This document shows, piece after piece, positions 12,730 through 28,853 of a DNA stretch of 37,131 bases. The notes under the pieces were generated by a model. The model was not told where the DNA came from and searched no databases. It saw nothing but the letters and a program-made list of their open reading frames with translations. The stretch lies in the IMG/VR virus record IMGVR_UViG_3300046721_000318, positions 1-37,131 of that record; one strand, written 5' to 3'. Position 1 is the first letter of the stretch. Each line of letters begins with the position of its first letter. Made by a program: the position numbers and the translations under genes. The stretch comes from a virus.

Positions 12730-15700
12730 CTAGTGGTTGGCGAAGCTCCCCGTCTCCATGAGCTGACGCTCGCCGGCCTTGGGTAGCCTGAGGCCGAACG
12801 CGCCCGGATGCAGCGTGCCTTTCCGGCGTTCGTTCAGCTGCTGCAGCAGCTGATCATGGGTGATCTTCGAACCGAAGTTGACGTTCCCGTCGGCGTTGAA
12901 CCGGCGGATGTCCGACATGACGGCGGCGCGGTCACCGGGGTCCGCTTCGAGCCACCTCTGGACCAGTCTGCTCCGGGTCTCGTTCATATGGTCGCGTGCC
13001 TGGACGATGGCCTGCCGACCCATGCGCGCCTCGGATACGCTGGAGGGCGCGATGCCGACCGCCTGGTAGGCCACGTCCAGCGGACTGATCTTCGACGGTG
13101 CCAGGATCTGCTTGCCGCGCGCGTCGACAGCGCCCTTGGTGGCGAGCCCATAAGCCTTGACCGGGTCGCGCAGGATGCGTGGCAGCATGGCTACCGCGCC
13201 GCCTCGCAGTTCGCCGTCCATCATCTTGGCCATGCCGCTCACGATGCTGCCCACGTCCTCGCCCGCCGCGCCGAGCATGAGATGGCCGCCGAACTCGGCG
13301 AAGTCCTTCGGCGAGTAGCCATTAAGCTGGGGTATGTTCAGCATGTTGTTCACACCCAGCCGGTGCGACATGTCCGCGCCGAACAGATGCGGCACGCCCT
13401 GGCCCACGATCTCACCCAGGGTGGGGCCGATGGTCTTCGCCAGCCACTGCCGCATCTCCAGCACGCGATCCTTGGGTTTGTGACCCGTCGCCAGGTCGTA
13501 GGCGCCACCCAGGTAGCGCACGGGATCGGCGACCCAGGTCAGCGCGCCCGCCATGAGCGAGTGCATCATGACCGTGCCGGTGAATTGCAGGAAGGCTTCC
13601 TTACGCACCGCCGGATCGACGCCCTTGCCGAACGAGTCGCGCATCAGGTTGGCGATCAGCCAGGTCTCGTTGAGGCCGTATTGTTTGAACTGCATGATCG
13701 GCGCCGCCGCGCGGCCGAACATGCCCTTCTCCGTGGTGATGCGCGCCCGGTTGGCCACCGAGTAGTTGGGCGCCTTGCGCAGGGTGTTCTCCGCGAAGTC
13801 CATCGCGTCCTTGATGCCCTCGCCCTTGCCGCGCGCCGTCCTGAACGCGGCCCACGCGCCGCTGATGCGGCTCATCTCGTCGCTGGCGTGGGTCGTGGCG
13901 CTGGATATCTCCAGGAAGCGGTCCCACAGATTGCCGGCCGTGGTGGGACGCGACAGTTCCCTGAGCGACGCCGCCTCAGTGTTGCCGAACAACCCGAGGT
14001 CGGTGAAGTGTTTGAAGAACCGGTTCACTTCACTACCGTCGTAACCCCTGGTCAGTAATCTTTGTTTGGCCATCTCGGCGAAATCGTAGTTGACCGAGCT
14101 GAGCGGCTTGCCGATCAGCGCGTCGAGCGTGTTCCTGGCACCCTTGCCTATGATGGATGGCGCGAGATCCTTGAGCGACCGACTCAACTCCAACGCGGCG
14201 CGTCCGAAGCCATGCCGGGCTCCGATGAATACGGCCATCTTCATGTGCATCTCGGCGGCTTCGACCGCCACGCGGGACAGGCTCATCATGCTCTGCGCGT
14301 AGCCGAACGCCGAGACCTTCCGCGCCAGGGCGAACCCACCCGCGTGGTTCAGTTCGTCACCGTTCTGAAACCGCTTGCGTAGCTCGTGGTAAAGCTGGTC
14401 GCGCAACACGCTGTCGCCATCCCCGGCGCCGGCCCGCTGGTCGTTGAACGCCTTCATCCTCTCGAAGGCCGCGTCCCGCTCACCGCCGTGCATTATGGTG
14501 CCGATGCGCCGGCCCGATGCCTGGAGGTCGGTGCCGAGGGCACGCGCCACATCCTTGGACGCGCCCGCCACGTAGCGGCGCCTGGCGGTGGCGCGCTCCT
14601 GGCCGGACGCGTACTGCATCTGCAGGTGCGCCGCCATTTCCTCCAGCGCGTTGGCATGCGCCCGCAAGGCGGGGTCCCGCCGGACCGCCGCGATCATCTC
14701 ATCGACCACGGGGGAAAGGCGCATCTGCCGTTGCGCCACGATATCGTTGCGCTCGCGCACGTCCTGGACGTCGGCCACGCCGTCGGCCAGTTGCTTGTTA
14801 CGGAACGCCGCCGCCTCGCTCGGCTTCTCGAAGAACTGCACGCCGTATCCGGGGTCGCCGGGTTGCCCGCCATACTCGACGACGAAGTCACCGTAGCGGC
14901 GCATCGGGAAGTAGTCCCCGTCGACGAAGCCCATGCGGGTCAGTTTGGCCATGCCCCTGGCTATGCGCTTATGATCCTGGGCGATGGCGGCGTTGTCGGG
15001 GTCGGACAGGAACGCGTCCAGCCGCTCCTTGCTGGCCATGGTGTGGCGCATCAGTGCCTTCTCGGCGTCGGTCGCGTTGGGCATGAACCGATTGACCAGG
15101 TTGTCGGCCACCGCCTGCCGCTCGACGGCGTATTTCTCGGTCAGCAGGTCACGGGTTTTGACATAGAGGGCTTGCTTCTCCGGCGTCATGGCGTCGAAGC
15201 GCGACTGCAACGCACTCAGTTGGGCGCGCTCGTCGGGCGTGGTCAGGTGCGCGTTGGCGTCCGCCTCGCGCGTGCCCAGGGCCGCGCGGGCATACCCGGC
15301 GTCGTTCATCAGTTCGGCCACGTCGTCGTGCTTCACAAGTTCGCGCGCGACCTCGGCGAACCTTGGCGCGAACTTGCGCAGGAAGCGGTCGCTCGCCACC
15401 TGGGCGTGTTCCTGCGCCGTGCGGATGGCCACGGCGTGGTTGACGTCGCCGTCCTGGAATTTACTACGGAAGCGATCAATCAGCCGGTCGAAATGAATGG
15501 TGGACAGCAGGTTGCGGAACGCGCCGGGTTTGAGGTTATCGCCCACCGCGTCCAGGGTGCGCTCGGCCACGTGGCTGGCGCGCTCGCCGAATGCCTCGTG
15601 CGCGGACCACGCCAGCGGTGCCGAGTCGGCCCGCAATCGGGGATCGGGGTGCAGGTATTTCTCGTTGAACTTCGCGGCACGCTGCGCGATGTCGGTGACG

Positions 15701-18700
15701 GGCTGCATGATATGATCGAGCAGCGTGTATTCGGCGCCGCTTTGGGCTCTGCGTAACCCCAGCCCATCACGTACCAGATCAACGAAACTACTCCATACGG
15801 ACCGCCCGCGCGGACGCGGTTGCATACCAAGCGACGTCATTTTCTTACGGAACTTGTCCGACGCCACGAGGCTATTGGCGAAAGACCACAAGTCCGCGTT
15901 GGTCATCAGCATCGTATGCAACTCATGCTCGTTGCTTAGCGCATACATGATGCTTTCAGCCTGGCGTTTGGTTTCCGGGACATTCTTACCGAACTCTCCC
16001 ACGGCCAGCTTATCGCTGAAACCTTCCCTGAGCGCCTCCGCTATCGCGTGCAGGGCCTGAAGATCTTTATGTCCTGGGTCGTGCTGCCGTAAAGTTTCTA
16101 TGTAATGGAAGAACGCCGAGTGCACCATCTCATGCAGCGCCGTCTCCAGGTGCGTCCCATGCTGATGCTCCAGGTCAAGGTTGACCATGATATGTTCGAG
16201 GCCGGGATCCTGTTCGTAATGGCCGTAAGTCCGTTGTCTTATCCGGCCGATGTCCTTATCACCGATATAGCCCAGTTCGTGCCCTCGTTCCGCCGTTACT
16301 ACGGGAATACCACGCGCCAGTTTGTATAGTTGCCGGGCCAGTGCCGCCAGATCAGGACGTTCCGCGATGACCAGCGGGTCCTGCATGATGTTGCGCGCCA
16401 GATCCTGGTCGGTGAATGGCACATCGTATTGTTCCGATGTGCGTATCGCGTGTTCCACGCCGGCGGTCAGGCGCGAGTCCGTTAATACCCGTAACGAATT
16501 GGCTGATGTGGGATCGATGCCCGTGGACGTTGGCGCGTGTTCCAGCGTTTCGCCGCCGCCACGCTTCGCCAGGCTCTCCCTGAACGCCGCGCGCGTGGCC
16601 ATGGCCTGCGCCTGATCGGCGACGGTACCCACGGGGTCCACGATCCTGGCCCGCGCTTCCTTCAGCGCCGCGATGCGCTCGGGCGCGACCTGAGCCAGTC
16701 TGCCTTCCAGTATTTTGGTTCGCTCGGCGTATTTCTCGCGGGCCTCCTTCGCCGCTTCGGCGGTCCGGGGTTTCTGTTTCGCGCCCGGCATGTCCTTCTT
16801 CGCGCCCGCCAACAGGTGCGCGTCAAGTTGCTTCCGGTGCGTCTCGGCCAGCAGCGGGTTGCTCACGCGTTTGATCTCGGCGTCGAACGCGGCGGCCAGG
16901 CTCGTGGCATCGGCGTTGCGCGGTCGCCCCACGGTGCCCTTTTTGTCGAACTCGGCCTGTGCCTGTTCGACCGTCATGGGATCGGTCGGATCGAGTACCT
17001 TGTTGATGTAGTCGGCGGCCTTGCGCTCCTGGACATGCGCGACCGTGACGGGTTTGTTCTTGGTATCGAGTGCCATGGTCAATCCGGCGCTCTCACCCTC
17101 GCCACCGCCCACGGCGGTCTCCTCGATCCCTTCAGCGGACGTGGGCTTATCAACCTTGCCGCGCTTCTGTTCCTCCTCGCGTACGACCGAGGCTTCGCTA
17201 CGCGTGGGTTCATCGCCGGTGCGCGTGACCAGACGCTCGCCCATGACCTTCTTGTGGAACAGCTGCGCCAGATCCTCGCGGGCTTTTTGCGTGACCTCCG
17301 TGCCGCCGGCGCGTGGCGCCATGATACGATGCGCGATATCGACCAGTTGCTCGCGCGAGCCGTTGCTCATGTGCACCAGGTTGCCCAGGTCCCGCAGTGC
17401 CTCCGTCATGGCCTTGCCCCTGGGCGTCCCTGGCGGCAGCCCTCCCATGGCCTGCTTGCGCACGGTCTCTATGTCAGCGAGCGCCTGGCCCCGCGCCAGT
17501 TCAGCGGCGCGCACGGTCTGTAGGTCATCCGTGGTCGGCGCGGCGGTCTCTTCCTCGCGCGCGACGTAGGCCTGGGGTCCGGCCTTCTTCTCCGGGATGA
17601 CGACGGTGGGTTGCTTCTTGCGGCCCTTGGATGCCGCGACCGCCTTCTCGACGGCGGGTTTCTCGGCCGGGACCGGGGCCTCCGGAGTTTTCCCGCTTTG
17701 TTTCGTATCGACAAGGGTCGCCAGTTCTTCCTCGGTGGGTCCGGCGGCCACGGTCTCGCGCGTCTTGCGTAACGTTTCGGCGGACGAGCGCATGCGCGCT
17801 TCCAGATCGGCCTGGGCCGTCGAAGGGCGCTCGGTAGCCGGTGCCGAAGGGAGTGAAGTCTCCGGCACCGGCGGAGCCACGGTTTCCCTCGGGGGAACCA
17901 ACCCCTCGGACCGCTCTGGGCGTGATGCGGGAACGCCCGGCTCGACGGTAGAGGTTGGCGGAGTCGGTGTCGACGCCGCTTTACGCCGCTCCTCGCGGTC
18001 GTAGCGCGTGGCCACGTCGTTCGGCGACATGTTCTTAAGTTGTGTCGGCGACGCGCCGTATTCGCCGACCAGCACGTCCACCATCTCGGATTTTGTCTTG
18101 CCCTTGGACGGGCGCTCGCCCGGTGCCTGGGGTTTTACTCCCGGAGTAACCGGTGGTGTGGACTCTGGTGGCGCGGCCCCACCGCCGCCGCGTGGAGCGG
18201 CTGGCGGTGGCTCCACGGGTGTGTTGGGTGGCGGCGGTTCACGCGGGAACATCTCGCCCTGCGTGGGCGCTGGCGGACGCACCTGGGTCGTGGGGTCGAA
18301 CAGGTTGCCTTGCGATGCTTCCGGTGGGAGCCCTGGCTGCACGCCGGCTATGGCCGGCTCGCGCGGCGCTTGCCCCGCGCCCGCCTGACCCTCGGTGAAC
18401 ATCTCGCCCTGGCCCGACATGCCGGGCAGCATGCCCTGGCCCGGCGTCGTGGGGTCGAACGCCGGAGGTGGCGGTGGCGGCGGTGGCCCCAGCGCCTCGC
18501 CCAGTGCCGCCACCGCGTCGGGTGGCACGCCCTCGGGGGGTCTGACCTGGGGTGCTTCCGGTCTGACCGGGTGCAGCGCGCCACCGGCGGCGCCTATGAC
18601 CGCGCCCGTCAGCGCGCCGCTGGCGACACCCCGCGCGATGGCACCCTGGTCGAACTCCTGCCGCGTGCCGATGCCCTGCTGGAACTGCTGACCGATGGCT

Positions 18701-19818
18701 ACGTTGGCGCCGCCCTGGCCGCCCATGAGCGCCGCGCCCTCGCCACCCCCCACCACCGCGCCCAGCAGGCGCCCCTTGCCACCCAGCTTGCCCAGCACGC
18801 CCCTGGCGGCCAGGCTCATGGCGCCCTGACCAGCCGCCGCGCCGACCAGTGCCGCCTCCAGCATCATCGGGTCGATGGCCTGCTTTTTCAGCAACTCCTT
18901 CGCTTCGGTGTCGGAATAACCGCCGCGCCGCATCTCGGCGTAGGCCGGCGACTGCATCATCGTGGCTTCGGGCGTGTTCTTCAGCGTCTCGACGGCGCTG
19001 TTGTACTGCTCGCCCATGTTCTGCAGGCCGAACGTGCCCATCTCGCCGACGACGCCACCCGCTCTGGCGACCTTCGTCGCCGCGCCCACCAGTGACATCG
19101 CCTTGATCGCCAACCTGCCCACCAGGGCGGCGGGCAGCAGCGTCATGGCGATGTCGGGGATCAGGTTGATCGCGTTGGCGCGCATGTAGGTAAGGTAGCC
19201 AACCTCGCCCGGCGTCGGGATGTGGTTACCCTGCGCGTCGACACCGCCGAACATCGAGGCCGACAGGCCACGTTTCAGCGATGGCGAGCCTTCCTCAAGC
19301 AGCTTGTCCATCCACTGGCTGACGTTGTCGCGCTGCTGGTCGGTCCATGCCTTGGTCGACGGGTCGGCGCCGACCTTGTCCTCGAAGTAGCGCGCGGCGC
19401 CCAGCACGCCTTCGAGCGCGCCGCCGCCACCATGCTGGATCGTAGTCCACAGGTCGCCGAAGAACCCCCGCTCGCGCGACTCGTCGCTGACACCCGAGTG
19501 GCCATACGTCTCGCCCGGCGTGGCATCCCTGGCCTCATCCAGGCTGAGCGTGCGATAGCGCGGTGTTGTTGGTGTCGGAAGCGCGGTGCGCGGCAGCGCA
19601 CCGGGTTGCTCTGGAGTGGGCCGTGTCGGGATGGGCTGCGCGTATGGCTGCGTGAAAGCCTGTGTCGTGGGCAGGCCCGTGGGCTGGCCGCCGTAGCCGC
19701 CCTGCGACGGGAGGAACTGGCGGTTGAAGTCATTCTGGAACGCGACGTCGTACTGACTGGGTTGCTCTTCGGGCTCTGGCTCACGCGTGAGCGTGTCGGT
19801 GTTCGGGGCGAAGGCCAT
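12730..19818 (-). CDS. Giant polyvalent/internal virion protein with zincin motif, 2362 aa
   Basis: A 2362-residue protein of the class carried in the virion and ejected into the cell (polyvalent or DarB-like proteins and T7 gp16-like giants). The N-terminal 420 residues include hydrophobic, Gly/Ala-rich segments (IAMTLLPAALVGRLAI, GALTGAVIGAAGGAL) that may interact with membranes. Residues about 425-760 are Pro/Gly-rich and probably disordered, holding QGEMF at 470 and 520 and QGNLF at 503. Residues 1225-1300 have ALHEMVHSAFFHY, with His1229, Glu1230 and His1233 of an HExxH zinc-peptidase site, and downstream NEHELHTMLMTN that could give the third ligand. Residues about 1990-2130 (GRAAAPIMQFKQYG, then a hydrophobic stretch) resemble the PLxRFG-type region of phage polyvalent proteins. 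It follows the transglycosylase gene, as expected for ejected core proteins. Confidence 0.8.
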   Translation of the reverse strand: MAFAPNTDTLTREPEPEEQPSQYDVAFQNDFNRQFLPSQGGYGGQPTGLPTTQAFTQPYAQPIPTRPTPEQPGALPRTALPTPTTPRYRTLSLDEARDATPGETYGHSGVSDESRERGFFGDLWTTIQHGGGGALEGVLGAARYFEDKVGADPSTKAWTDQQRDNVSQWMDKLLEEGSPSLKRGLSASMFGGVDAQGNHIPTPGEVGYLTYMRANAINLIPDIAMTLLPAALVGRLAIKAMSLVGAATKVARAGGVVGEMGTFGLQNMGEQYNSAVETLKNTPEATMMQSPAYAEMRRGGYSDTEAKELLKKQAIDPMMLEAALVGAAAGQGAMSLAARGVLGKLGGKGRLLGAVVGGGEGAALMGGQGGANVAIGQQFQQGIGTRQEFDQGAIARGVASGALTGAVIGAAGGALHPVRPEAPQVRPPEGVPPDAVAALGEALGPPPPPPPPAFDPTTPGQGMLPGMSGQGEMFTEGQAGAGQAPREPAIAGVQPGLPPEASQGNLFDPTTQVRPPAPTQGEMFPREPPPPNTPVEPPPAAPRGGGGAAPPESTPPVTPGVKPQAPGERPSKGKTKSEMVDVLVGEYGASPTQLKNMSPNDVATRYDREERRKAASTPTPPTSTVEPGVPASRPERSEGLVPPRETVAPPVPETSLPSAPATERPSTAQADLEARMRSSAETLRKTRETVAAGPTEEELATLVDTKQSGKTPEAPVPAEKPAVEKAVAASKGRKKQPTVVIPEKKAGPQAYVAREEETAAPTTDDLQTVRAAELARGQALADIETVRKQAMGGLPPGTPRGKAMTEALRDLGNLVHMSNGSREQLVDIAHRIMAPRAGGTEVTQKAREDLAQLFHKKVMGERLVTRTGDEPTRSEASVVREEEQKRGKVDKPTSAEGIEETAVGGGEGESAGLTMALDTKNKPVTVAHVQERKAADYINKVLDPTDPMTVEQAQAEFDKKGTVGRPRNADATSLAAAFDAEIKRVSNPLLAETHRKQLDAHLLAGAKKDMPGAKQKPRTAEAAKEAREKYAERTKILEGRLAQVAPERIAALKEARARIVDPVGTVADQAQAMATRAAFRESLAKRGGGETLEHAPTSTGIDPTSANSLRVLTDSRLTAGVEHAIRTSEQYDVPFTDQDLARNIMQDPLVIAERPDLAALARQLYKLARGIPVVTAERGHELGYIGDKDIGRIRQRTYGHYEQDPGLEHIMVNLDLEHQHGTHLETALHEMVHSAFFHYIETLRQHDPGHKDLQALHAIAEALREGFSDKLAVGEFGKNVPETKRQAESIMYALSNEHELHTMLMTNADLWSFANSLVASDKFRKKMTSLGMQPRPRGRSVWSSFVDLVRDGLGLRRAQSGAEYTLLDHIMQPVTDIAQRAAKFNEKYLHPDPRLRADSAPLAWSAHEAFGERASHVAERTLDAVGDNLKPGAFRNLLSTIHFDRLIDRFRSKFQDGDVNHAVAIRTAQEHAQVASDRFLRKFAPRFAEVARELVKHDDVAELMNDAGYARAALGTREADANAHLTTPDERAQLSALQSRFDAMTPEKQALYVKTRDLLTEKYAVERQAVADNLVNRFMPNATDAEKALMRHTMASKERLDAFLSDPDNAAIAQDHKRIARGMAKLTRMGFVDGDYFPMRRYGDFVVEYGGQPGDPGYGVQFFEKPSEAAAFRNKQLADGVADVQDVRERNDIVAQRQMRLSPVVDEMIAAVRRDPALRAHANALEEMAAHLQMQYASGQERATARRRYVAGASKDVARALGTDLQASGRRIGTIMHGGERDAAFERMKAFNDQRAGAGDGDSVLRDQLYHELRKRFQNGDELNHAGGFALARKVSAFGYAQSMMSLSRVAVEAAEMHMKMAVFIGARHGFGRAALELSRSLKDLAPSIIGKGARNTLDALIGKPLSSVNYDFAEMAKQRLLTRGYDGSEVNRFFKHFTDLGLFGNTEAASLRELSRPTTAGNLWDRFLEISSATTHASDEMSRISGAWAAFRTARGKGEGIKDAMDFAENTLRKAPNYSVANRARITTEKGMFGRAAAPIMQFKQYGLNETWLIANLMRDSFGKGVDPAVRKEAFLQFTGTVMMHSLMAGALTWVADPVRYLGGAYDLATGHKPKDRVLEMRQWLAKTIGPTLGEIVGQGVPHLFGADMSHRLGVNNMLNIPQLNGYSPKDFAEFGGHLMLGAAGEDVGSIVSGMAKMMDGELRGGAVAMLPRILRDPVKAYGLATKGAVDARGKQILAPSKISPLDVAYQAVGIAPSSVSEARMGRQAIVQARDHMNETRSRLVQRWLEADPGDRAAVMSDIRRFNADGNVNFGSKITHDQLLQQLNERRKGTLHPGAFGLRLPKAGERQLMETGSFANH

Positions 19819-19821
19819 GGC

Positions 19822-22800
19822 TCATGCCACCCGTCGCCTGGGCAGCCCGGTCAGGTCCTGGCCGTAGCCGGATTGTAGCGCGCCATAGGTCCCGGCGCCC
19901 GCGCCGATGCCCGTGTTCTGGGGGTTGACCACCGACGGCATCATGTCGGGCGCGCCACCCGTGGGACGTGCCGGTGATAGCGGCGTGGGCGTCAGCGCCG
20001 GAGCTGGTACGCCGGGGGCCCTCAAGGGTTCCGATCCGGCGAGGCCGATGAGTGCCTTCAACCCTTCGCCCGCCGCGTGAGGTATGGACTGAACAATCTC
20101 ACCTTTTTGGTTCTTGATGGCGTAACCCGGCGTGCCGTCCTTGGCGGTGACCGCCTGCAGGCTGAACTGACGCGCGGTCGGACTGCCTGGCCTCGCACCC
20201 GCCGATAATCCGTCGGCGAAATACTTGGCGGCCGGCGCGGCTATACCGGCGCCGCCTTCCGATGGTGTCATGATAAGCTGTTTGAAGATGGACCCGGAAC
20301 GCGCGTATTCCTCGGCGTCCGTCCCCGCCGGTATCTCTCCCGGCGGATAGTAATCCTTCACCATACCGGAGACGTCTTTATCCCGCTCGCCACGAGCTTT
20401 ATCCACCTCTGTCTTGTGCTGCAGCTGTTGTTGTTTCATCGCGATATCCGCGTTGGCTTTGTCTATCGCGGCCTGCGTCCGCAGACCCACGTTCTCCGCT
20501 TTTTGGGTTTCGATCTCAGGCCGCGCGTTCGCCCACCTGGCCTGCGCGTTGTGCAGGTTGATCTCGGCGTTGACCTTCTGATGATCCTGCAAGACCTTGG
20601 TATAGGTCTGCGGATTACGTAGCTCGATCATCTTCTGCGCCAGGACTTCGTGCGTGATATGTAACGGACTGCTGATCGGGTCGCCATGACTGCCGTCGGC
20701 GATTTTATAAGCCCAGATCTCGCCGTTCTTATCCATGCCGGCGCGCGCGTAGGCGCCGTCGGGGAAGAACGCGTATGATTTCAGCACATGGTTTATGGCG
20801 CCCTGCGTGTCGCCCGCCAGCAACGCCTGATCGGCGGCCATGAGATGCGACACCGCGCCCTGGTGGCTGACCTGGGCAACCCACTCCTGCGCCATGCCCG
20901 CCATTTCGGGACGCCCGCTGATGATCAGGTAGTGCTCCATCGCCGACTGCATGCCGCGCCAACGGTCGGTGTCGCCCAGCCCGGCGGGACCGGACTGCTG
21001 CAGCTTCTCCAGCACCCCGTCCGGCCCGGCCGCCGCGTTCGCCGCCACCAGTTCCGGCACGTTGTAGGGTTTATGCTCCGGCGTGCCACCGGGAACCATG
21101 GCCGTGGTGAGCTGCGTGGTGGGGAACATGGTCTTCATGTTCTGCACCTGGTCCGCGCGCTCCACGCTGCTGGCGGCGTAACCGTCCCAACCCATGCGCG
21201 CCACGTCTGGCAGGCGATGCGGCCCAGCCCGATAGGCGAACGCGGCCTGCACCGTGTTGTAACCGAGGCCACCGAAAGTACTGTCGCCCGTCGCCAGGTA
21301 TTTATAATATCGCACACCGAGACGCAGGCTGTCGTAATCGTCCAGCGGGTTCAGTTCGTGCCGGGGGTCGATAAGGTCTCGCGTATCGCCTATGACCTGC
21401 GTTAATCCTTTCGCGTCGGTGACGACGCCATTCTTCCCCGTGCCATGGGTAAGCCCTGACTTCCACTGGCTCTCGCGCTCGATGGTCGCCGCCATGAACG
21501 CGCGGTCGAGGCCCTGGGCACCCTCGGCCTGAATGGCCTTGTCCATCAGGGCCAGCTTGTCGGGATGCGCGTGCTCGGCGCGCCGCAAGGCGCCGTAATC
21601 CACGGGTGGCGCCAGCAAGGGTGGCGTGGCCTGCGACTGCTCGACCGTTCCGCCGGTGCCCGCGACCACGACCGGACCCGGTGGCGGGTGCGCCGGCGCA
21701 CCCGCCGTGGGTGGTTGCGCGGGTGTGAGCGCGGTCGGTTGCGCGGTGGCGGGCGCGGCGGGCGCGGCCGGGGGCGGTTGCGATGGTGGCGGGATCTGCA
21801 CCGGTGTGTTCGAAGCGGCGGTGCCGACCGGGGCCGGGGGCGCGTATGCCAGGCTGGTGGGTTGCTCCTGACCCGTGGGCTCGGCGGCCTGCGCGGACCC
21901 TATCGGGTTGAGCATCCCCATGAGGCGTCCGCCCAGGGACGGCGGCCCGGCCGCCAGCGGCACGCGCCCGCCCGGCGTTCCAGGAGTACCTCCCGGCACG
22001 GCGGGGTTGCCAGGGTTGAACGGCGCGCCCTGTTGCGGTGGCGGCGTGTAAGGCTGACCCGGTTGCGTGCGGGAGATCGGCGCGTTCGGATCCTGCATGG
22101 TCTGGTAGGGCGGTGGCGGTCCGGAGGGAGACCCCGGCGGACCGGCGACGCCCGCCGCGTTGTAAGGCGTGCCAGACATCTGCGATTGCGCGGGCGGATA
22201 GACCGTAGCACCTATGGGTGCGTTAGTGATCCCGCTCCGACCCGCCCACGCGCTGGGGCTTGTGCCCAGGCCCAGACTGGCACCCACGGGTGCCGGCGGA
22301 TACACAGGCGCGCCCGAGGGAGAACCCGGTGCGCCTTGCACACCCGCCGCGTTATAGGGCGAACCCGACATCTGCGTCGGCGGCTGCGACATAACGCCGA
22401 CAGCGGGACCCGAGGGAGAACCTGGCTTACCCGGCACACCCGCCGCGTTATAGGGCGAGCCCGACATCTGTGATTGCGGCCGGGGAAGTCCCGTCGATAC
22501 GTCGTAGCCACCGTAAGGCAGCGTGCCGTTATCCGTCCTGAATGTTCCGTTCGGCCGGTTCAGCGTCGCGTCCGAAGGATAAACCGATGGTGGTCGCGCA
22601 CCTCCCGTGGTCGTAGGCGTCAGCCCCGGCTCGACATCGCCCGGTCCCGGCTCGCCACCCGTCGGTCCGCTCTCGGTGGGTTTGGCGCTGACCGGCCCGG
22701 CCGGTAACGTGGTTTGCGCCGGCGCTCCCGGACCGCCCGGGGGTGCCGGGGTTTGCTGCGCGCCAGGGAAACCCTGCTGGCCGGGTACCTCGCTCACCCC

Positions 22801-22971
22801 GGCCTGTTGCTTCTCCAGCGCTTCCTGTTTCGCCCGATCTTCTTCGCGTTTCCTGTCGATCTCGTCGAGCGCGACCTGGCGCCGAACGCCCTGGTAGGAG
22901 TCGTACAGGTTGAAGATACTCTGCGCGCCCTTGAACAGCCCATCCGAGAACGAACCCAGTGGAAACGCCAT
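19822..22971 (-). CDS. Internal virion protein with lytic transglycosylase domain and collagen-like region, 1049 aa
   Basis: Residues about 470-610 form an SLT-type lytic transglycosylase: ATIERESQWKSG with catalytic Glu500, KGLTQVIGD in the GLMQ position, then LDDYDSLRLGVRYYKYL and AFAYRAGP. This enzyme would cut peptidoglycan as DNA enters, as the N-terminus of T7 gp16 does (family knowledge). Before it, residues 60-460 are Pro/Gly-rich with three copies of a QMSGxPYNAAGVxGxPGSPSG unit. The first 60 residues are coiled (EIDRKREEDRAKQEALEKQQ). Residues about 800-900 contain a long Gln/Lys/Ala coiled coil (NAQARWANARPEIETQ, IAMKQQQLQHKTEVDKA). It sits between the PP-loop enzyme and the giant protein in the late operon. 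Confidence 0.85.
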   Translation of the reverse strand: MAFPLGSFSDGLFKGAQSIFNLYDSYQGVRRQVALDEIDRKREEDRAKQEALEKQQAGVSEVPGQQGFPGAQQTPAPPGGPGAPAQTTLPAGPVSAKPTESGPTGGEPGPGDVEPGLTPTTTGGARPPSVYPSDATLNRPNGTFRTDNGTLPYGGYDVSTGLPRPQSQMSGSPYNAAGVPGKPGSPSGPAVGVMSQPPTQMSGSPYNAAGVQGAPGSPSGAPVYPPAPVGASLGLGTSPSAWAGRSGITNAPIGATVYPPAQSQMSGTPYNAAGVAGPPGSPSGPPPPYQTMQDPNAPISRTQPGQPYTPPPQQGAPFNPGNPAVPGGTPGTPGGRVPLAAGPPSLGGRLMGMLNPIGSAQAAEPTGQEQPTSLAYAPPAPVGTAASNTPVQIPPPSQPPPAAPAAPATAQPTALTPAQPPTAGAPAHPPPGPVVVAGTGGTVEQSQATPPLLAPPVDYGALRRAEHAHPDKLALMDKAIQAEGAQGLDRAFMAATIERESQWKSGLTHGTGKNGVVTDAKGLTQVIGDTRDLIDPRHELNPLDDYDSLRLGVRYYKYLATGDSTFGGLGYNTVQAAFAYRAGPHRLPDVARMGWDGYAASSVERADQVQNMKTMFPTTQLTTAMVPGGTPEHKPYNVPELVAANAAAGPDGVLEKLQQSGPAGLGDTDRWRGMQSAMEHYLIISGRPEMAGMAQEWVAQVSHQGAVSHLMAADQALLAGDTQGAINHVLKSYAFFPDGAYARAGMDKNGEIWAYKIADGSHGDPISSPLHITHEVLAQKMIELRNPQTYTKVLQDHQKVNAEINLHNAQARWANARPEIETQKAENVGLRTQAAIDKANADIAMKQQQLQHKTEVDKARGERDKDVSGMVKDYYPPGEIPAGTDAEEYARSGSIFKQLIMTPSEGGAGIAAPAAKYFADGLSAGARPGSPTARQFSLQAVTAKDGTPGYAIKNQKGEIVQSIPHAAGEGLKALIGLAGSEPLRAPGVPAPALTPTPLSPARPTGGAPDMMPSVVNPQNTGIGAGAGTYGALQSGYGQDLTGLPRRRVA
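22121..22470 (-). repeat. Three collagen-like 60-bp repeats inside the transglycosylase gene
   Basis: Three near-identical units of about 62 bases lie at 22121-22183, 22313-22374 and 22409-22470. Each encodes QMSGxPYNAAGVxGxPGSPSG on the minus strand. The Gly-x-Pro pattern resembles collagen-like linkers. Spacing is uneven, so they are dispersed rather than strictly tandem. Confidence 0.85.
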
Positions 22972-22973
22972 GG

Positions 22974-23711
22974 TCAGGTTACCCCCGCTTCACGCCGGAG
23001 CCGGGCCAGGGAGGGCGCGATGGCGTCGATGATGACCTGCAACCGCGCGTCGTACTCGGCCCATATCTCCGGATGGTATTCTTTGAGATAGCCGGCGCGC
23101 CCCTCGCTCCACCACGCCGAACACCGCGCGCAATCGGGCGAGCCGGTCATGTGATCGTAAAGCCTGGGCAACGGCACGTTCTCGGAGCGTAAGTAATCCA
23201 GCACTTCCTGGTGCGTCCAGTCCAGCACCGGCAACCATAGCTCCATGCCGTCCGCGACCGCGCCCGACATGACAGGCAGGCGGGGCATGTCGGCGCGCTT
23301 GCTGCCGCGTATGATCAGCGTGATCCCGTCGGCGCGCATGCGCTCAAGCAGCGGCAGCATCAGGTTGGCGTAGCAGCAGTCGTATCGCGAAGAGAGCGCG
23401 CTTTTTGCCTCGCCCATGAGTCGGCCGACAGGATGATGCGAGTAAGGCATGAGGTCCGTTGGCAATCCGTTTGCCGCGATCCATCCTGTAACGTTCGTTT
23501 CGATGCGAACGAACCGAGGGGCGAATGCTTCAACAAGCGATACGTTTTCTCGCATCTCGGGCAGAAGGTCGCCCGTGTCGAGGTGGTAAATGGTGATCTC
23601 ATGGAGACAGTTCCTGAGGAGTTGGATGCACGCACGGCTGTCCTTGCCTCCCGAATAAGAGAGCCCGACCTTCTCGTGCCGGTCCAGCGGCGAGTAGTCC
23701 ATCAACCTCAT
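22974..23711 (-). CDS. PP-loop (PAPS-reductase-like) ATP-dependent enzyme, 245 aa
   Basis: The N-terminus KVGLSYSGGKDSRACIQLL carries the PP-loop SGGKDS (residues 20-25) that binds ATP or an adenylated substrate in PAPS reductases, ATP sulfurylase, DndC and tRNA thiolases. Further features of the phage PAPS-reductase-like group are a YDCCYANLMLPL cysteine pair, RGSKRADMP, and PVLDWTHQEVLDYLR. At the C-terminus, PDCARCSAWWSEGR supplies two more Cys in place of the ECGIH tail of true CysH. The missing CysH tail argues against plain assimilatory sulfate reduction. A sulfur or adenylation chemistry on nucleic acid, protein or a small molecule is possible. ATG 23711 overlaps the methyltransferase stop (ATGA), so I reject a GTG at 23726. 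Confidence 0.85.
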   Translation of the reverse strand: MRLMDYSPLDRHEKVGLSYSGGKDSRACIQLLRNCLHEITIYHLDTGDLLPEMRENVSLVEAFAPRFVRIETNVTGWIAANGLPTDLMPYSHHPVGRLMGEAKSALSSRYDCCYANLMLPLLERMRADGITLIIRGSKRADMPRLPVMSGAVADGMELWLPVLDWTHQEVLDYLRSENVPLPRLYDHMTGSPDCARCSAWWSEGRAGYLKEYHPEIWAEYDARLQVIIDAIAPSLARLRREAGVT

Positions 23712-24370
23712 CTGCGCCGCGCCCACCAGATGATCGGGCGCACCCCCGAGAAGATCCGGTCATGCAGATCCGGATCGATGAACATGGAGCGGAACACCTC
23801 GTTGCTGCCCTGGGGCAGCAGGAATGCTTCGAGGTCCCACCCGGCGACGCGGTTGACCACGCGCAAACTGTCGAACGGGATGAAGCGCGCGCCCAGATGT
23901 TGTAACGATAGCGCATCATCCTCGGCGCCGAAGCGGGCGCAGTCGAACACGAACAGCTTACCGCCCGGCCGCACCACCCGCCACGCCTCGCGCAGCGCGT
24001 GCACGAACCCGTCCGACTGGCACAGGGAATACAGGAACATGGCGCCGTCGAACGACGCCTCGTCGAACGGCAGCTCGTGCATGTCGCAACAGAACGTCGC
24101 CACGTCCGGCGGCGCCTGCGACAACTGGAACGAATTGTTGTTGACCAGCCAGAACCTCAGGTCGGGACGTAACTCCCGTAGTAAACGGACCGGCTCGCCG
24201 AACCCGCACCCGATGTCCACCCAGGTCGAGTCCTGGTCGGGCGCCATGTGCCCCAGCAGGATCGCCATGTGCTCGCGGTCGTCCTTGTCCAGCCGGCATC
24301 CCTGCAGCACGCGGATGCCCCTGGCGAGCGCGCCGCGCGACGCCTCGGTGAGTTTGTCCTGGTCGATCAT
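23708..24370 (-). CDS. Class I SAM-dependent methyltransferase, 220 aa
   Basis: Seen in order: motif I WVDIGCGFGEPVRLL, an acidic/Asn loop FWLVNNNSFQLSQ, CCDMHELPFDEASFDGAMFLYSL (motifs III-IV) and LREAWRVVRPGGKLFVFDCARFG (motif VI). This is the Methyltransf_11/UbiE layout, usually acting on small molecules or lipids but also on proteins. The C-terminal part has no DNA-target-recognition look, and no D/N-PP-Y/F box is present, which argues against a typical DNA adenine or N4-cytosine methylase. ATG 24370 overlaps the stop of the upstream virion gene. The longer in-frame extension is rejected because it is antisense-like and overlaps that gene. It is coupled to the PP-loop enzyme downstream, suggesting a two-step modification (inference). 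Confidence 0.85.
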   Translation of the reverse strand: MIDQDKLTEASRGALARGIRVLQGCRLDKDDREHMAILLGHMAPDQDSTWVDIGCGFGEPVRLLRELRPDLRFWLVNNNSFQLSQAPPDVATFCCDMHELPFDEASFDGAMFLYSLCQSDGFVHALREAWRVVRPGGKLFVFDCARFGAEDDALSLQHLGARFIPFDSLRVVNRVAGWDLEAFLLPQGSNEVFRSMFIDPDLHDRIFSGVRPIIWWARRR

Positions 24371-25236
24371 GTCGCGATGGCGATGGCGGCGACACCGGCG
24401 GCGGCGCCCGCCAGCCCGCCCACGCCGGAGGCCTGGTTCTGCGCGATGGCGGTGTTGGCGTTGAACCCGGCCATGGAGTTCTGGAAGTTGGTGTTCATGA
24501 TGTTGGCCGCGTTCATGTTGGAGGTGTTGCTCAGCCCCTGCCACTGCGTCGGCGTGCCCATCAGGTTGCCGTACGTCGACGATGTGTTCAGCCCGGCGTT
24601 GATCCCGGCGCCCCCCTGGCTGGCGGCACCCTGCCCGGCGCCCTCGGCGGTGCTGTAGGACTGCGCCACCTGACCAGGGTAGCCACGGCCGATGTTGATC
24701 GCCTCGCCCTGCAGGGCCAGCCCGGTGGCTTCCGTCTGGTTGCGCGCCTGGGTCCCGGCGCCGGCCTGGGCGGCGGCCTGCTGGATGCGGGCGCCCAGGT
24801 CGAGCGCGCCGTAGCGGGCCTGGCTGGGGTCGATGTTGAACCCCTCCAGGGTCTGCAGCGCGGCGTTGCGCTGACCCGAGAAGGCGTTGGCCACGTCGGC
24901 CTGCGCCGCCGCCGAGCGCTGGTCCGCCCGTCCCGGCGTGTTGTAGTCCTGAGCCTGTTTGGCGAACGCGCCTTCCATGGGCCGGTAGGTTTTCTCGTAG
25001 TATTGCTGCGCGGTTTGCGCGTTGGCCATGTTCTGGCGTTGCGCGTCCATCGACAGGTTCGACGCGTCCATCATGTTCTGCATGAACGCCTGGGTCCGGG
25101 GCGCCTCCTCGGCGTATTGCTGCTTGGCCCAGTCCAGCTGGTCTTTCGATGTCTGCGCGCCGATCTTCGCCGCCTCCAGCGAGGATGCCGACACCGCCGA
25201 ATAGTCCGGTGGAGCGGGCGCCCGGCCCTTACTCAT
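24367..25236 (-). CDS. Internal virion protein, T7 gp14-like, 289 aa
   Basis: The protein is Ala/Gln/Asn/Gly-rich with a long helical N-terminal half (EAAKIGAQTSKDQLDWAKQQ), MQNMMDASNLSMDAQRQ, and a central YEKTYRPMEGAFAKQAQDYNTPGR segment. Its C-terminal end is small-residue hydrophobic (GVGGLAGAAAGVAAIAIAT) and may insert in a membrane. I recognise this pattern (YRPxE/D-x-F ... ADV ... Q/A/N-rich tail, hydrophobic end) in internal virion proteins encoded before transglycosylase-type genes in podoviruses. T7 gp14 forms the outer-membrane channel (family knowledge). Starts in an ATGA overlap with the GNAT gene and ends in an ATGA overlap with the methyltransferase. Confidence 0.75.
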   Translation of the reverse strand: MSKGRAPAPPDYSAVSASSLEAAKIGAQTSKDQLDWAKQQYAEEAPRTQAFMQNMMDASNLSMDAQRQNMANAQTAQQYYEKTYRPMEGAFAKQAQDYNTPGRADQRSAAAQADVANAFSGQRNAALQTLEGFNIDPSQARYGALDLGARIQQAAAQAGAGTQARNQTEATGLALQGEAINIGRGYPGQVAQSYSTAEGAGQGAASQGGAGINAGLNTSSTYGNLMGTPTQWQGLSNTSNMNAANIMNTNFQNSMAGFNANTAIAQNQASGVGGLAGAAAGVAAIAIAT

Positions 25237-25697
25237 GACACGTTCTCCGGCAGGAGGTTACTACGGTAGTGACGCGGCCTTAGATTGAGATATCTGCACT
25301 GATCCCTGGTCATCTCCATGATCACCAGGTCCGACCCGTCGGGATAGACGTCGTCGATGACGGCGGCCACGGTCCAGCCAAGATGCTTGTTGACGCGCAG
25401 CGCGACATGGTTGGTCGACTTCACCAGCCCCATGGCCTTGCGGCAGTTCAGTTGCGCGAACGCGTAATGGAAGATCATCCAGAGGAAGTCGCGCGTCACC
25501 CAGTTATCCTTCGACCCCGCCGAGTGCATCATGAGCGAGGAACCCAGATATCCCGTGAACACGACACCGCCCACGGTCTTCCCGTCGCGGTGCATGGCCA
25601 CCACGTGGTCGGTCTTCTCGTTGAACACGCCCTCGATGCGTCCCATGACCCAGTCGCCGTCGCCGGGATGGTTGATGCGGATCTCGCGCTGGCTCAT
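25233..25697 (-). CDS. GNAT-family acetyltransferase-like protein, 154 aa
   Basis: The product has a GNAT-type layout: a central beta segment (DHVVAMHRDGKTVGGVVFTG), then WVTRDFLWMIFHYAF. The acetyl-CoA-binding region follows, CRKAMGLVKSTNHVALRVNKHLGW, matching the N-x-x-A-x-x-x-x-x-x-x-G-W/F end of motifs A and B. Proteins of this kind, often annotated as GNAT or injection-associated, recur in phages next to internal virion genes. Substrate unknown. Chain overlaps on both sides put it firmly in the late operon. The last codons (RHYRSNLL) include ACTACCGTAGTAA (25255-25267), a near match to the repeated 15-mer, perhaps by chance of coding. Confidence 0.75.
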   Translation of the reverse strand: MSQREIRINHPGDGDWVMGRIEGVFNEKTDHVVAMHRDGKTVGGVVFTGYLGSSLMMHSAGSKDNWVTRDFLWMIFHYAFAQLNCRKAMGLVKSTNHVALRVNKHLGWTVAAVIDDVYPDGSDLVIMEMTRDQCRYLNLRPRHYRSNLLPENVS

Positions 25698-25918
25698 TTC
25701 AGTTTCGCCCCGATATCGCCCTCGGTCACCAGGCCAAGCCTGACCAGGTCGTTCAATGTGACCGCGCGGTCCAGCGGATTACCGCGATGGCCGCCCAGCG
25801 ACTCGACACCCTGGCGTAGCTGACTCGCCACCGTCACCAACGATTGCAGGTCGCTGATCGGCTGGCTGATCGAAGGCACGTTGAAGTTCCGGGAAACCTG
25901 GTTTGGGTTGAGCGCCAT
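25694..25918 (-). CDS. Small virion-operon protein, 74 aa
   Basis: The start codon overlaps the stop of the gp12-like gene by one base (TGATG), and its stop overlaps the GNAT start (ATGA). The 74 residues begin MALNPNQVSRNFNVP, continue through SDLQSLVTVASQLRQGVESLGGH and end with LNDLVRLGLVTEGDIGAKLK. It looks like a short helical protein with no membrane segment. Small proteins of this form commonly sit between tail and internal virion genes in podoviruses. No function is known. A longer frame starting at 26056 is rejected because it lies inside the tail gene. Confidence 0.7.
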   Translation of the reverse strand: MALNPNQVSRNFNVPSISQPISDLQSLVTVASQLRQGVESLGGHRGNPLDRAVTLNDLVRLGLVTEGDIGAKLK

Positions 25919-28209
25919 CACACGGTCTTCAGTTCGCGCATCGTCGACGCGAGTTCGACGCTGTGGATCGAACATCTGGCGATGATCTCGAACTGCCAGT
26001 TGAACGCCTTGCGCCCCGACGGGAAGCGGAAGATGCAGCGTGTCTGTTGCAGCCACTCCTCGTGGATCAGGTCCTGCGATGGACCGGCGTAAAGCCGGAA
26101 CCGCGCGTTGACGCCGGGCGGCAAGGTCAGGTTCTCCATCGGCGTGTCGGGCGGCGGGACGACATCCGTCGGCGCCGGATCAAGCACCTCCGGATCGAGC
26201 GATACCTGGCAGGCGCCCAGCGACACCGGACTGGCGAAGTAGAACTCGCGCGACCGCCAGCGGTAGATCAGCGGCGGCGTGTCCATGCTGTCCCATTTGT
26301 ACACGACCTCGTTGGCCATGATGTAGGCGTCGCCCGTGTAGACATCGTTCCAGATGCTGACCACGTCGACGAACGGCGACACCGAGCATATCCCCAGGCG
26401 TTCCTCGGTGTAGTCGATGAGGAAGCCCATGCCGGTGCCGTTGATCGCGAGGTATTGCGCGCGGTGGCGGCAGGCGACGAGGTTATCCCCGTGGAACCGC
26501 TTGATCCAGATCTCGCGCGTGAGGTTGCTGAGCGTCTGGTTCTGCGCGCCGTAGTAATTCAGCGCCACCAGACCATTGGGCGAGGAATAATAGACCCCCG
26601 CGAGGTCGGTCACCACCGAGCCGCGCGAGATGCATGGCTCCGGCGTCTGGATCTGCGCGAAGATGTACTGCGCCGGGGAATTGCCCGTGCCGGTGCTGGG
26701 GAACCCCGAGGTCAGCACGACCAGGGACTGCTGCCATAGCGCCAGCGCCACGATGGGATAATGCAGGCTCTGGTCGTAGCCCGCCGGCCACGCGTTGGGC
26801 CGGTTGGGTTCACAGAAGTGGATGGTGTTGCCGGTGAAGCCCACCAGCATGCCACCGGGGATCGAGATCAGCCCGTCCAGGTCTTCCACGGGCGGCGCGA
26901 AACTCACCGATGCCAGTATGTTGTTCTGCACCACCGTCGTGTTGGGGATGGTATCGTTGTAGACCGTGATGCCGATGGCCAGGTCGACCACGAAATAGAA
27001 CGTGGCGCCGCCGGAGACCCCGGCAACGGTACGATACAGCCTGGTCGTGACGATGGGTGGGTAATTCTTGCCCGACGGCGTGGGCGGCGCCGAAGCGGGC
27101 AGGTTGGCCACGTGCCATACCGCGTCCGTGGCACCCGACTTCACGATGGAAGGCGCGGACGGCGAGCTCTCGGTGCCCAGCGAGTCGACGAACGTATAAC
27201 AGTAGGACCGGTCCTCCAGTGGCGCGTCGCCGCTGGGATCGTAATGCACGTCGAACGTGAGGCCCGAGCCCGTCCCGGAAATCAGCGTGGGCGTGATCGG
27301 ATTGGCCGGCGTGGTGGTGTAGTGCGTGTCGGGCCCTATCGGCATCAGGTCCCTGGCGCCCATGTCGAACCTCACGGCCGCGCCGGTAGGCCCGACCGCT
27401 CCCGGTCCCGCGTCGATCAGGCGGACCGGCTCGTTCGCCGGGTTGACGGGATTGGTGTTGTAAGTGCCGGGTAACGGCACGTCGACCACCGACACCAGGG
27501 CGCCGCCGACGACCTGCAGGTGCACCTCGATCTGCGCCCCCTCACCCGTGGTGCCCTGGAACAACGCCGACGCGGCGTCCGTGCCCCCGGTGCCGGCACT
27601 GGCGATGCCGACGTTCACCGCCTGCGTGGTGTTCAGCAGGAACCGCTGCGGCAGGTGGCCGAACGCAAGCACGCCACCAGGGACTTCCAGCACGGTGTTC
27701 TGCGTGTAGTTGGCGCCTGGGGTCACGACGGTGGCGCCATTCGGGACGAGCGCCGGGATGCCGCCGCCAATGGGTGACACGACGGGCGCCGCCGCGTCCG
27801 ACGGATCGACGGGGATGAACCCCAGGCTGTAGTGTGGGTCGCCATTTTTAATACGGTCGTAAGTATTCCACCAGGCGCCCGCGTCGGGCACGCCGGGCGG
27901 GTTGGTCCAGAACACCCGGTGCAGCGTGTCGTTGGCCAGAGGCGAGACGCAGACGCAGGAGAACTCGCTCGGCAAGGGCAGCCATTCCTCGGGGTCCCCA
28001 GGCTTGGGACCCGGCACGCGATAGGCCTTGCGTACCTCCCAGGTCGCCTTGCCGGACAGGTCGATGACCGGCTCGGGCTGCGGCAACCCGTTCAAGGGCC
28101 CGTGCGCCAGGTCGGTGTTGGTGGCGCGCGAAGCCATGTTGTCGGGCAGGAGCCTGGGCTCCCGCCTGGGTATCTCACCTCCGAAATCCTTGACCGCGAA
28201 CGCGACCAT
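25918..28209 (-). CDS. Large tail protein, T7 gp12-like (tail nozzle) candidate, 763 aa
   Basis: The N-terminus, MVAFAVKDFGGEIPRREPRLLPDNMA then SRATNTDL, has the pattern of tail tubular protein B (gp12) N-termini, with a 'GGI-x-x-R-x-P-x-LLPD-x-x-A-x-x-A-x-N' start and an immediately following GPLNGLPQP. The rest is beta-rich with Gly/Pro-dense loops and short strands (FHGDNLVACRHRAQYLAING), as in the nozzle. The length (763) is close to T7 gp12 (794). No enzymatic motif seen. It would form the tail nozzle below the adaptor. I am reasonably but not fully sure, since the similarity is only visible at the N-terminus and in gene order. Confidence 0.65.
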   Translation of the reverse strand: MVAFAVKDFGGEIPRREPRLLPDNMASRATNTDLAHGPLNGLPQPEPVIDLSGKATWEVRKAYRVPGPKPGDPEEWLPLPSEFSCVCVSPLANDTLHRVFWTNPPGVPDAGAWWNTYDRIKNGDPHYSLGFIPVDPSDAAAPVVSPIGGGIPALVPNGATVVTPGANYTQNTVLEVPGGVLAFGHLPQRFLLNTTQAVNVGIASAGTGGTDAASALFQGTTGEGAQIEVHLQVVGGALVSVVDVPLPGTYNTNPVNPANEPVRLIDAGPGAVGPTGAAVRFDMGARDLMPIGPDTHYTTTPANPITPTLISGTGSGLTFDVHYDPSGDAPLEDRSYCYTFVDSLGTESSPSAPSIVKSGATDAVWHVANLPASAPPTPSGKNYPPIVTTRLYRTVAGVSGGATFYFVVDLAIGITVYNDTIPNTTVVQNNILASVSFAPPVEDLDGLISIPGGMLVGFTGNTIHFCEPNRPNAWPAGYDQSLHYPIVALALWQQSLVVLTSGFPSTGTGNSPAQYIFAQIQTPEPCISRGSVVTDLAGVYYSSPNGLVALNYYGAQNQTLSNLTREIWIKRFHGDNLVACRHRAQYLAINGTGMGFLIDYTEERLGICSVSPFVDVVSIWNDVYTGDAYIMANEVVYKWDSMDTPPLIYRWRSREFYFASPVSLGACQVSLDPEVLDPAPTDVVPPPDTPMENLTLPPGVNARFRLYAGPSQDLIHEEWLQQTRCIFRFPSGRKAFNWQFEIIARCSIHSVELASTMRELKTV

Positions 28210-28662
28210 CTACTTTCGCCTGCTCCCATCCCTGGCGCCACGCGCCGCCGTCGGCACCTCGTCACCCAGCCAGATCCCAAGCACGGCGGCGCTGTCCACG
28301 GCATCCGAGTCCTGCATACCATACTGGTCGGGACGGAACCCGCGCGCCGTCTGCCCGGAACGGATATGCACGTAATAGAGCGCGGGATCACCACGCGCGG
28401 GCACCTGTACCACGTCACCATTCGGATCGGTGTAGCTCGTCGCGGCACTCCCCGGTCGACCGTACCAGACATCGGGTGGTGGCACGGATGGATCGAGGTT
28501 GGTGTCACGGATGACGATGTCACCGCTCGCATCACGTGGATCGCCGAGCGCGTTCCGCGCGGAACCGGGTGCATCGCGTTCAAGTTCTTCGCGTAACGCG
28601 AACACGCCCGCGACCCCACTGACGAGCGCGGTCACGGGGAACGTCATACGATAGTCGTTCAT
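28210..28662 (-). CDS. Virion-operon hypothetical protein, 150 aa
   Basis: Start ATG 28662 overlaps the stop of the previous small gene (ATGA). The stop TAG is directly followed by the gp12-like ATG. The product starts MNDYRMTFPVTALVSGVAGVFALREELE, giving one short hydrophobic stretch (residues 8-22). An Asp/Pro/Gly-rich loop region follows (DTNLDPSVPPPDVWYGRPG), then YYVHIRSGQTARGFRPDQYG. It is not long enough in hydrophobics to call a membrane protein. Located directly before the gp12-like gene, it could be a tail adaptor or connector component, but no family is recognised. Confidence 0.6.
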   Translation of the reverse strand: MNDYRMTFPVTALVSGVAGVFALREELERDAPGSARNALGDPRDASGDIVIRDTNLDPSVPPPDVWYGRPGSAATSYTDPNGDVVQVPARGDPALYYVHIRSGQTARGFRPDQYGMQDSDAVDSAAVLGIWLGDEVPTAARGARDGSRRK

Positions 28663-28853
28663 GTCGTCACCTTCTCGATGACGGGCAGGATCGCATCGAT
28701 GATCCGCTCGACGTCGATCAACAGATCGACATCCGTGGCACCACGCCCAGGAATGACAATAGCGTCCCCCACCATTTCAGCGTGCGCACCAAGTTGGTTG
28801 AGGATCGCAGCGGTGATCGCGTCGTTGAGTTTGTCTCGGTCAGCGGTGGTCAT
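28659..28853 (-). CDS. Small hypothetical protein, 64 aa
   Basis: Sits in ATGA overlaps on both sides, between the duplicated-module tail protein and the 150-aa gene. Sequence MTTADRDKLNDAITAAILNQL, then GDAIVIPGRGATDVDLLIDVERIIDAILPVIEKVTT. It looks like helix-strand-helix, acidic and soluble. No catalytic residues or membrane segment. The chain overlap is the main evidence that it is expressed. Confidence 0.65.
   Translation of the reverse strand: MTTADRDKLNDAITAAILNQLGAHAEMVGDAIVIPGRGATDVDLLIDVERIIDAILPVIEKVTT

Follow-up and report, generated by a model that had tools for sequence, protein, structure and literature searches.

A PP-loop enzyme and its methyltransferase neighbour in the ejection operon of short-tailed phages

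Phage genes resembling PAPS reductases are routinely reported as auxiliary genes for sulfate assimilation. In the virus genome studied here, such a gene lies next to that of a SAM-dependent methyltransferase, and both are enclosed by genes for internal virion proteins, which raises the question of whether the two enzymes act together and, if so, in what chemistry and on which substrate.

Position of the two genes in the ejection operon

In this region, the window analysed, that is, the whole 37,131-base virus record, is near-identical to an IMG/VR contig of 67 kb. Both reading frames are open on the minus strand of the window, that of the PP-loop enzyme P0001 (245 aa, of the [4Fe-4S] type) at 22974..23711 and that of the class I SAM methyltransferase (P0002, 220 aa) at 23708..24370. 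On the same strand, the genes follow each other from position 28853 in the order g64, X8, internal virion protein (25918..28209; phrog_511, E=1.1e-90), X6, GNAT acyltransferase (25233..25697; phrog_4470, E=5.5e-36), gp14-like ejection (virion structural) protein (24367..25236; phrog_8003, E=3.5e-51), methyltransferase, PP-loop enzyme, SLT transglycosylase (19822..22971, an internal virion protein; PF01464, 21.9 bits against a cut-off of 21.3) and a giant 2362-aa polyvalent-type protein (12730..19818; a weak LPD39 match, E=7e-4, below the Pfam cut-off), with which the operon ends. This layout resembles that of genes 12-16 of T7, a comparison that leans in part on the PHROG names, with two extra enzymes between the equivalents of gene 14 and gene 15/16 and with the GNAT gene in the position of gene 13.

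A run of overlapping genes from 28853 down to 22974 had been proposed in a preliminary description of this DNA, and most junctions as far as the PP-loop gene are indeed 4-bp overlaps (g64/X8, X6/GNAT, GNAT/gp14-like, gp14-like/methyltransferase and methyltransferase/PP-loop), the last three in the form ATGA. The exceptions are X8 and the internal virion protein gene, which abut exactly, and X6 (25694-26056), whose listed start makes it overlap the gene of the internal virion protein by 139 bp, in a different frame; this is the sole irregular junction, and the listed start is probably not genuine, the real one lying further downstream. Beyond the PP-loop gene, gaps of 2 bp (to the transglycosylase) and 3 bp (from the transglycosylase to the giant gene) follow. 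The interval 22700-29000 showed no sigma-70-like promoter. Compared with 65%-identical relatives, the differences fall mostly at codon position 3, which marks real coding. Both genes are genuine and lie in the internal-virion (ejection) operon. The ATGA overlaps alone are ordinary operon anatomy, and what goes beyond chance is the repeated pairing and fusion of the two genes described below.

The conservation of this position was surveyed in the 67 PP-loop clusters with enough upstream DNA. By a conservative test, the gene directly upstream was recognisably gp14-like in 44 of them, and a GNAT gene was present within the locus in 50. The same operon was also found with neither gene in Rhizobium phage RHph_TM3_14A and Klebsiella phage SopranoGao. 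As one of the genes or the whole pair is missing from close relatives, the pair is an optional insert, conserved in its position. Elsewhere in the window, a ParB-like protein (1757-2803; phrog_3264) is encoded in a module separate from the PP-loop gene; in E. coli, the PAPS-reductase-like IbrA pairs with the ParB-like IbrB.

A location amid ejection proteins could mean that both enzymes are themselves virion components, injected to act in the newly infected cell. In purified virions of phage JC1, mass spectrometry detected gp64, gp67 and gp68, which are encoded by flanking genes, but neither the acetyltransferase (gp63) nor the PAPS-reductase-like protein (gp65) (PMC9144972), a non-detection that is not proof of absence. 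JC1 gp64 is the positional homologue of the gp14-like protein of the window. Judged from gp65, the homologue of the PP-loop protein, a role as virion component finds no support, the injected-component explanation appears very improbable, and the JC1 data rather favour enzymes that would work inside the cell.

Motifs and folds of the two enzymes

P0001 carries SGGKDS at residues 20-25, C112C113 and C194xxC197, and has no ECGxH tail. For comparison, 128 PP-loop loci were grouped into 79 clusters, 71 of them informative on neighbouring genes. The ATP-pyrophosphatase motif SGGxDS and the pattern CC-x77..90-CxxC were present in 79/79 clusters, counts with a partial bias, since the patterns by which the loci were gathered covered SGGxDS or CxxC, though not the CC pair. 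The catalytic tail ECGxH, or ECG(I/L)H, was present in 0/79, so that the absence of the CysH ECGIH tail noted earlier for this protein extends to the whole set. The protein had also been credited with cysteine pairs of its own: the pairs are there, but they are not novel, as in a profile alignment C112C113 and C194xxC197 fall on the [4Fe-4S] cysteine pairs of the APS reductase 7lhr, the classical ligand pattern.

With respect to the fold, P0001 was assigned by Pfam to PF01507 (PAPS_reduct; 53.5 bits against a cut-off of 22.5, E=3.9e-14) and matched phrog_424. Its AF2 model (pLDDT 96.8) gave CysH 6vpu as the best structural match in Foldseek (E=8.8e-9); CysH and APS reductase came first, at TM 0.5-0.57 and 13-19% identity, followed by the sulfurtransferases TtuA and LarE, GMP synthase, TilS and YcfA. 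These assignments would fit a true PAPS/APS reductase that boosts host sulfate assimilation, the published interpretation for JC1 and CSP3, beside an unrelated methyltransferase. Against it stand the missing tail in all 79 clusters, the SGGxDS sequence, which aligns with SFGIQAA of PAPS reductases and replaces their SFG-type loop, the modest TM-scores and identities given above, the constant position within the ejection operon and the fusion to a methyltransferase. This explanation was rejected on account of the tail and the loop, and we consider it extremely unlikely. Thus, the label PAPS-reductase-like holds at the level of the fold and not beyond it: P0001 is a CysH-fold enzyme and probably not a sulfonucleotide reductase, and the absence of the ECGxH tail from every cluster makes 'PAPS reductase' a probable misnomer.

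Some members of the PP-loop set have unusual lengths or origins. Apparently extra-long open reading frames (e.g. L037, L038 and L042) were mostly upstream start extensions and not fusions. In three loci (L049:5413-6792, L116:5413-6792 and L114:2210-3493), the PP-loop domain has phrog_5845, of unknown function, fused at its N-terminus; in this part, a GDC and, further on, H and D are conserved and by eye resemble those of a papain/C39-type cysteine enzyme, and it gave no Pfam match and no convincing PDB match. A further clade (L029-L034, L108-L111 and relatives) comes from alphaproteobacterial genomes and viral contigs, possibly prophages, mostly without the methyltransferase.

P0002 (METHYLTRANSFERASE) is a class I SAM methyltransferase (PF08241, Methyltransf_11; 49.8 bits, E=5.5e-13) with DIGCGFG in the GxGxG region that binds SAM and an AF2 model of pLDDT 95.8. 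Both Foldseek and profile comparison placed it nearest to AtmM, RebM, TleD and SpnF, which methylate small molecules in natural-product pathways; a query with P0002 alone gave no matches in the phage collection. P0002 lacks the DNA-methyltransferase motif IV, [DNS]PP[YFW], as do 15/16 members of the subfamily, and a DNA methyltransferase was rejected on this basis.

These features bear on the possibility that progeny DNA is modified in the manner of DndC, by phosphorothioation or base thiolation plus methylation, for genome protection. DndC, likewise a PP-loop enzyme, contains a [4Fe-4S] centre (PMC10853773), and the operon closes with the giant polyvalent-type gene, in whose place relatives have DarB-like antirestriction genes. 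However, the methyltransferase is of the small-molecule type, the pair is absent from the relatives that carry the giant DarB-like gene, no DndD/DndE-like gene was seen among the annotated genes, and no cysteine desulfurase (PF00266) was found in 8 phage records, although IscS of the host might take its place, as has been described for Dnd. Modification of DNA is possible, and we rate this DndC-like form of it as decidedly unlikely. The preliminary description had favoured modification of the virion or of progeny DNA; neither gained specific support from these observations, nor from the missing JC1 orthologue in virions.

Pairing and fusion of the two genes

Rare co-occurrence of the two families in relatives had been proposed as part of what would speak against a joint function, and this was not what was observed. 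A methyltransferase of the subfamily lies within 57 bp of the PP-loop gene, in either order, in 20 of the 71 informative clusters: 12 with the methyltransferase first, 5 with the PP-loop gene first, 2 fused in the former order (L045 and L122) and 1 fused in the latter (L011). The fused proteins are of 466-480 aa, and Pfam confirms the fusions in L011 and L045.

The methyltransferase subfamily was also scanned independently, with two narrow alignments, as a single broad alignment lacked conserved stretches. Members scoring at least 196 bits adjoin a PP-loop gene except for L135/L136, L124, truncated by the end of its contig, and L145, in which the methyltransferase is cut at the first base of the contig and the PP-loop gene sits at the opposite end, as expected from a circular genome. 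About 35 unrelated methyltransferases (below 100 bits) were never beside a PP-loop gene; L106 and L107, early matches that were weak or unrelated, were left out. The only subfamily methyltransferases without a nearby PP-loop gene (L135:2225-2884 and L136:737-1396) come from related fragments of 8.6 and 17.7 kb, where they lie two genes ahead of a terminase-like protein.

The association has been lost or gained repeatedly. The PP-loop tree requires no fewer than 14 changes between presence and absence of the methyltransferase, and well-supported branches force 10 of these; gene order or fusion state changes at least 5 times on the methyltransferase tree. Mirror-tree distances of the two proteins correlated with r=0.59, a value reached by 0/5000 permutations, to which shared phage ancestry contributes.

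The PP-loop gene was without a subfamily methyltransferase in 51/71 clusters, and no convincing copy was found elsewhere in 15 such records that were searched. Therefore, the PP-loop product would be useful unmethylated, or another enzyme finishes it. As the PP-loop gene is often alone and the subfamily methyltransferase is rarely without it, the latter seems to depend on the product of the former. That most PP-loop phages lack the methyltransferase, and that the RHph_TM3_14A and SopranoGao operons lack both genes, would also be expected of two independent cargo genes that occupy a common insertion site among the ejection genes without acting jointly. Nevertheless, three fusions in two orders, both unfused orders and a methyltransferase subfamily nearly confined to PP-loop neighbours argue against this, and such unconnected cargo is highly improbable. 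Thus, there is strong support for a coupling of the two enzymes: their genes adjoin in either order, they are fused in either order, and this methyltransferase subfamily is scarce without its partner.

A putative two-step modification and its relation to known systems

The preliminary description had suggested a two-step modification by the pair; the coupling stands, and the chemistry is read from motifs and folds, of which a sulfur- or adenylate-type step plus methylation would be the most economical interpretation. The best explanation, to which we give an even chance, is that the module transfers sulfur in an ATP-dependent reaction assisted by Fe-S, or carries out a related conjugation, and that a dedicated enzyme then methylates the product. 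The PP-loop protein would activate the substrate with ATP by adenylation, with release of PPi, and its probable [4Fe-4S] cluster would support sulfur transfer to give a thiolated product, the sulfur most likely coming from a host cysteine desulfurase. The methyltransferase would then methylate this product, possibly on the new sulfur. Although translated with ejection proteins, the module would most likely be a soluble enzyme in the infected cell and not a part of the virion. As for the substrate, about half of our expectation falls on a small molecule, nucleotide or tRNA, a clearly smaller share on a virion or ejection protein, and the smallest on DNA.

A more specific form, in which a phage-specific thiolation-methylation (or nucleobase-conjugation-methylation) modifies ejection proteins or a molecule carried along with them, is on present evidence unlikely; if true, a large class of phage 'cysH' genes would serve virion maturation and not sulfate assimilation. 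The strongest rival, because it has a precedent for protein modification by a PP-loop enzyme, is an ATP-dependent conjugation onto the gp14-like or another ejection protein, completed by the methyltransferase, as by a QueC-family enzyme like Cap9. In type IV CBASS, Cap9 deazaguanylates a partner protein, and it is (as 9nto) among the best, though weak, profile matches of the PP-loop protein, whose gene mostly comes directly after the gp14-like one (44/67 by the conservative test). Conversely, no Cap10-like partner was noticed, the cysteine pattern is that of APS reductases, and Pfam assigns P0001 to PF01507 and not to the QueC family PF06508. An N-terminal GGKGSSAPPPPD-type motif of gp14-like proteins was considered as a PP-loop-specific target and was weakened as such, since relatives without the PP-loop gene have it too. 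Altogether, a Cap9-like conjugation seems rather improbable. Gp14-like proteins encoded upstream at many loci (e.g. L051, L067, L073 and L087) also show a GGKGSSAPPPPDY-type motif, N-terminal or behind an N-terminal extension, which is reminiscent of a double-glycine processing site and occurs in PP-less relatives as well.

Returning to sulfur transfer plus methylation, the dedicated methyltransferase and the three fusions point to an undescribed two-step chemical modification in this group of short-tailed phages, where the ejection-operon PP-loop enzyme is usually labelled, probably wrongly, as a sulfate-assimilation enzyme and the methyltransferase almost always has it as neighbour. A literature search, with subscription journals mostly outside its reach, returned no described fusion of a PAPS reductase and a methyltransferase, no report of this enzyme as one of the internal virion proteins, and no account of the PP-loop/methyltransferase partnership or of its link to the ejection operon. 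The two families themselves are known, and phrog_424 already embeds the fusion. If this interpretation is right, the cysH annotation of viral genes in this PP-loop group is mistaken, and phages possess a two-step modification; the fused proteins offer a single polypeptide for purification and assay.

Among known systems, the Burkholderia Lessievirus BcepIL02 and JC1 (gp67/gp65) have the PP-loop gene at the equivalent operon position with 46-47% identity but without a methyltransferase neighbour. The phrog_424 family ('phosphoadenosine phosphosulfate reductase', moron/AMG) is matched by both window proteins, the methyltransferase through its residues 16-100 at profile positions 9-93 and the PP-loop protein at 151-366; therefore, the fusion is already within that family model, although it is annotated solely as PAPS reductase and no description of its methyltransferase part was found. 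RebM, AtmM, TleD and SpnF share the class I fold as the best structural and profile matches to P0002, which is shorter (220 aa) and about 20% identical to them. CysH and the APS and PAPS reductases (PF01507) share the PP-loop fold, and the CC..CxxC spacing of the window protein is that of the APS reductase [4Fe-4S] ligands, whereas SGGxDS and the lack of the catalytic ECGxH tail set it apart. DndC, of which the window enzyme has about half the size, belongs with SspD to another comparable group. These are PP-loop ATP pyrophosphatases with a [4Fe-4S] centre (PMC10853773), the cluster of the window enzyme being predicted from sequence; they differ in that the window enzyme has a methyltransferase partner and no dnd/ssp partners were seen. 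TtuA, LarE and YcfA have the same PP-loop scaffold as structural neighbours of P0001, with 11-16% identity and no operon partners in common. They show that PP-loop enzymes can put sulfur on tRNA or a small molecule.
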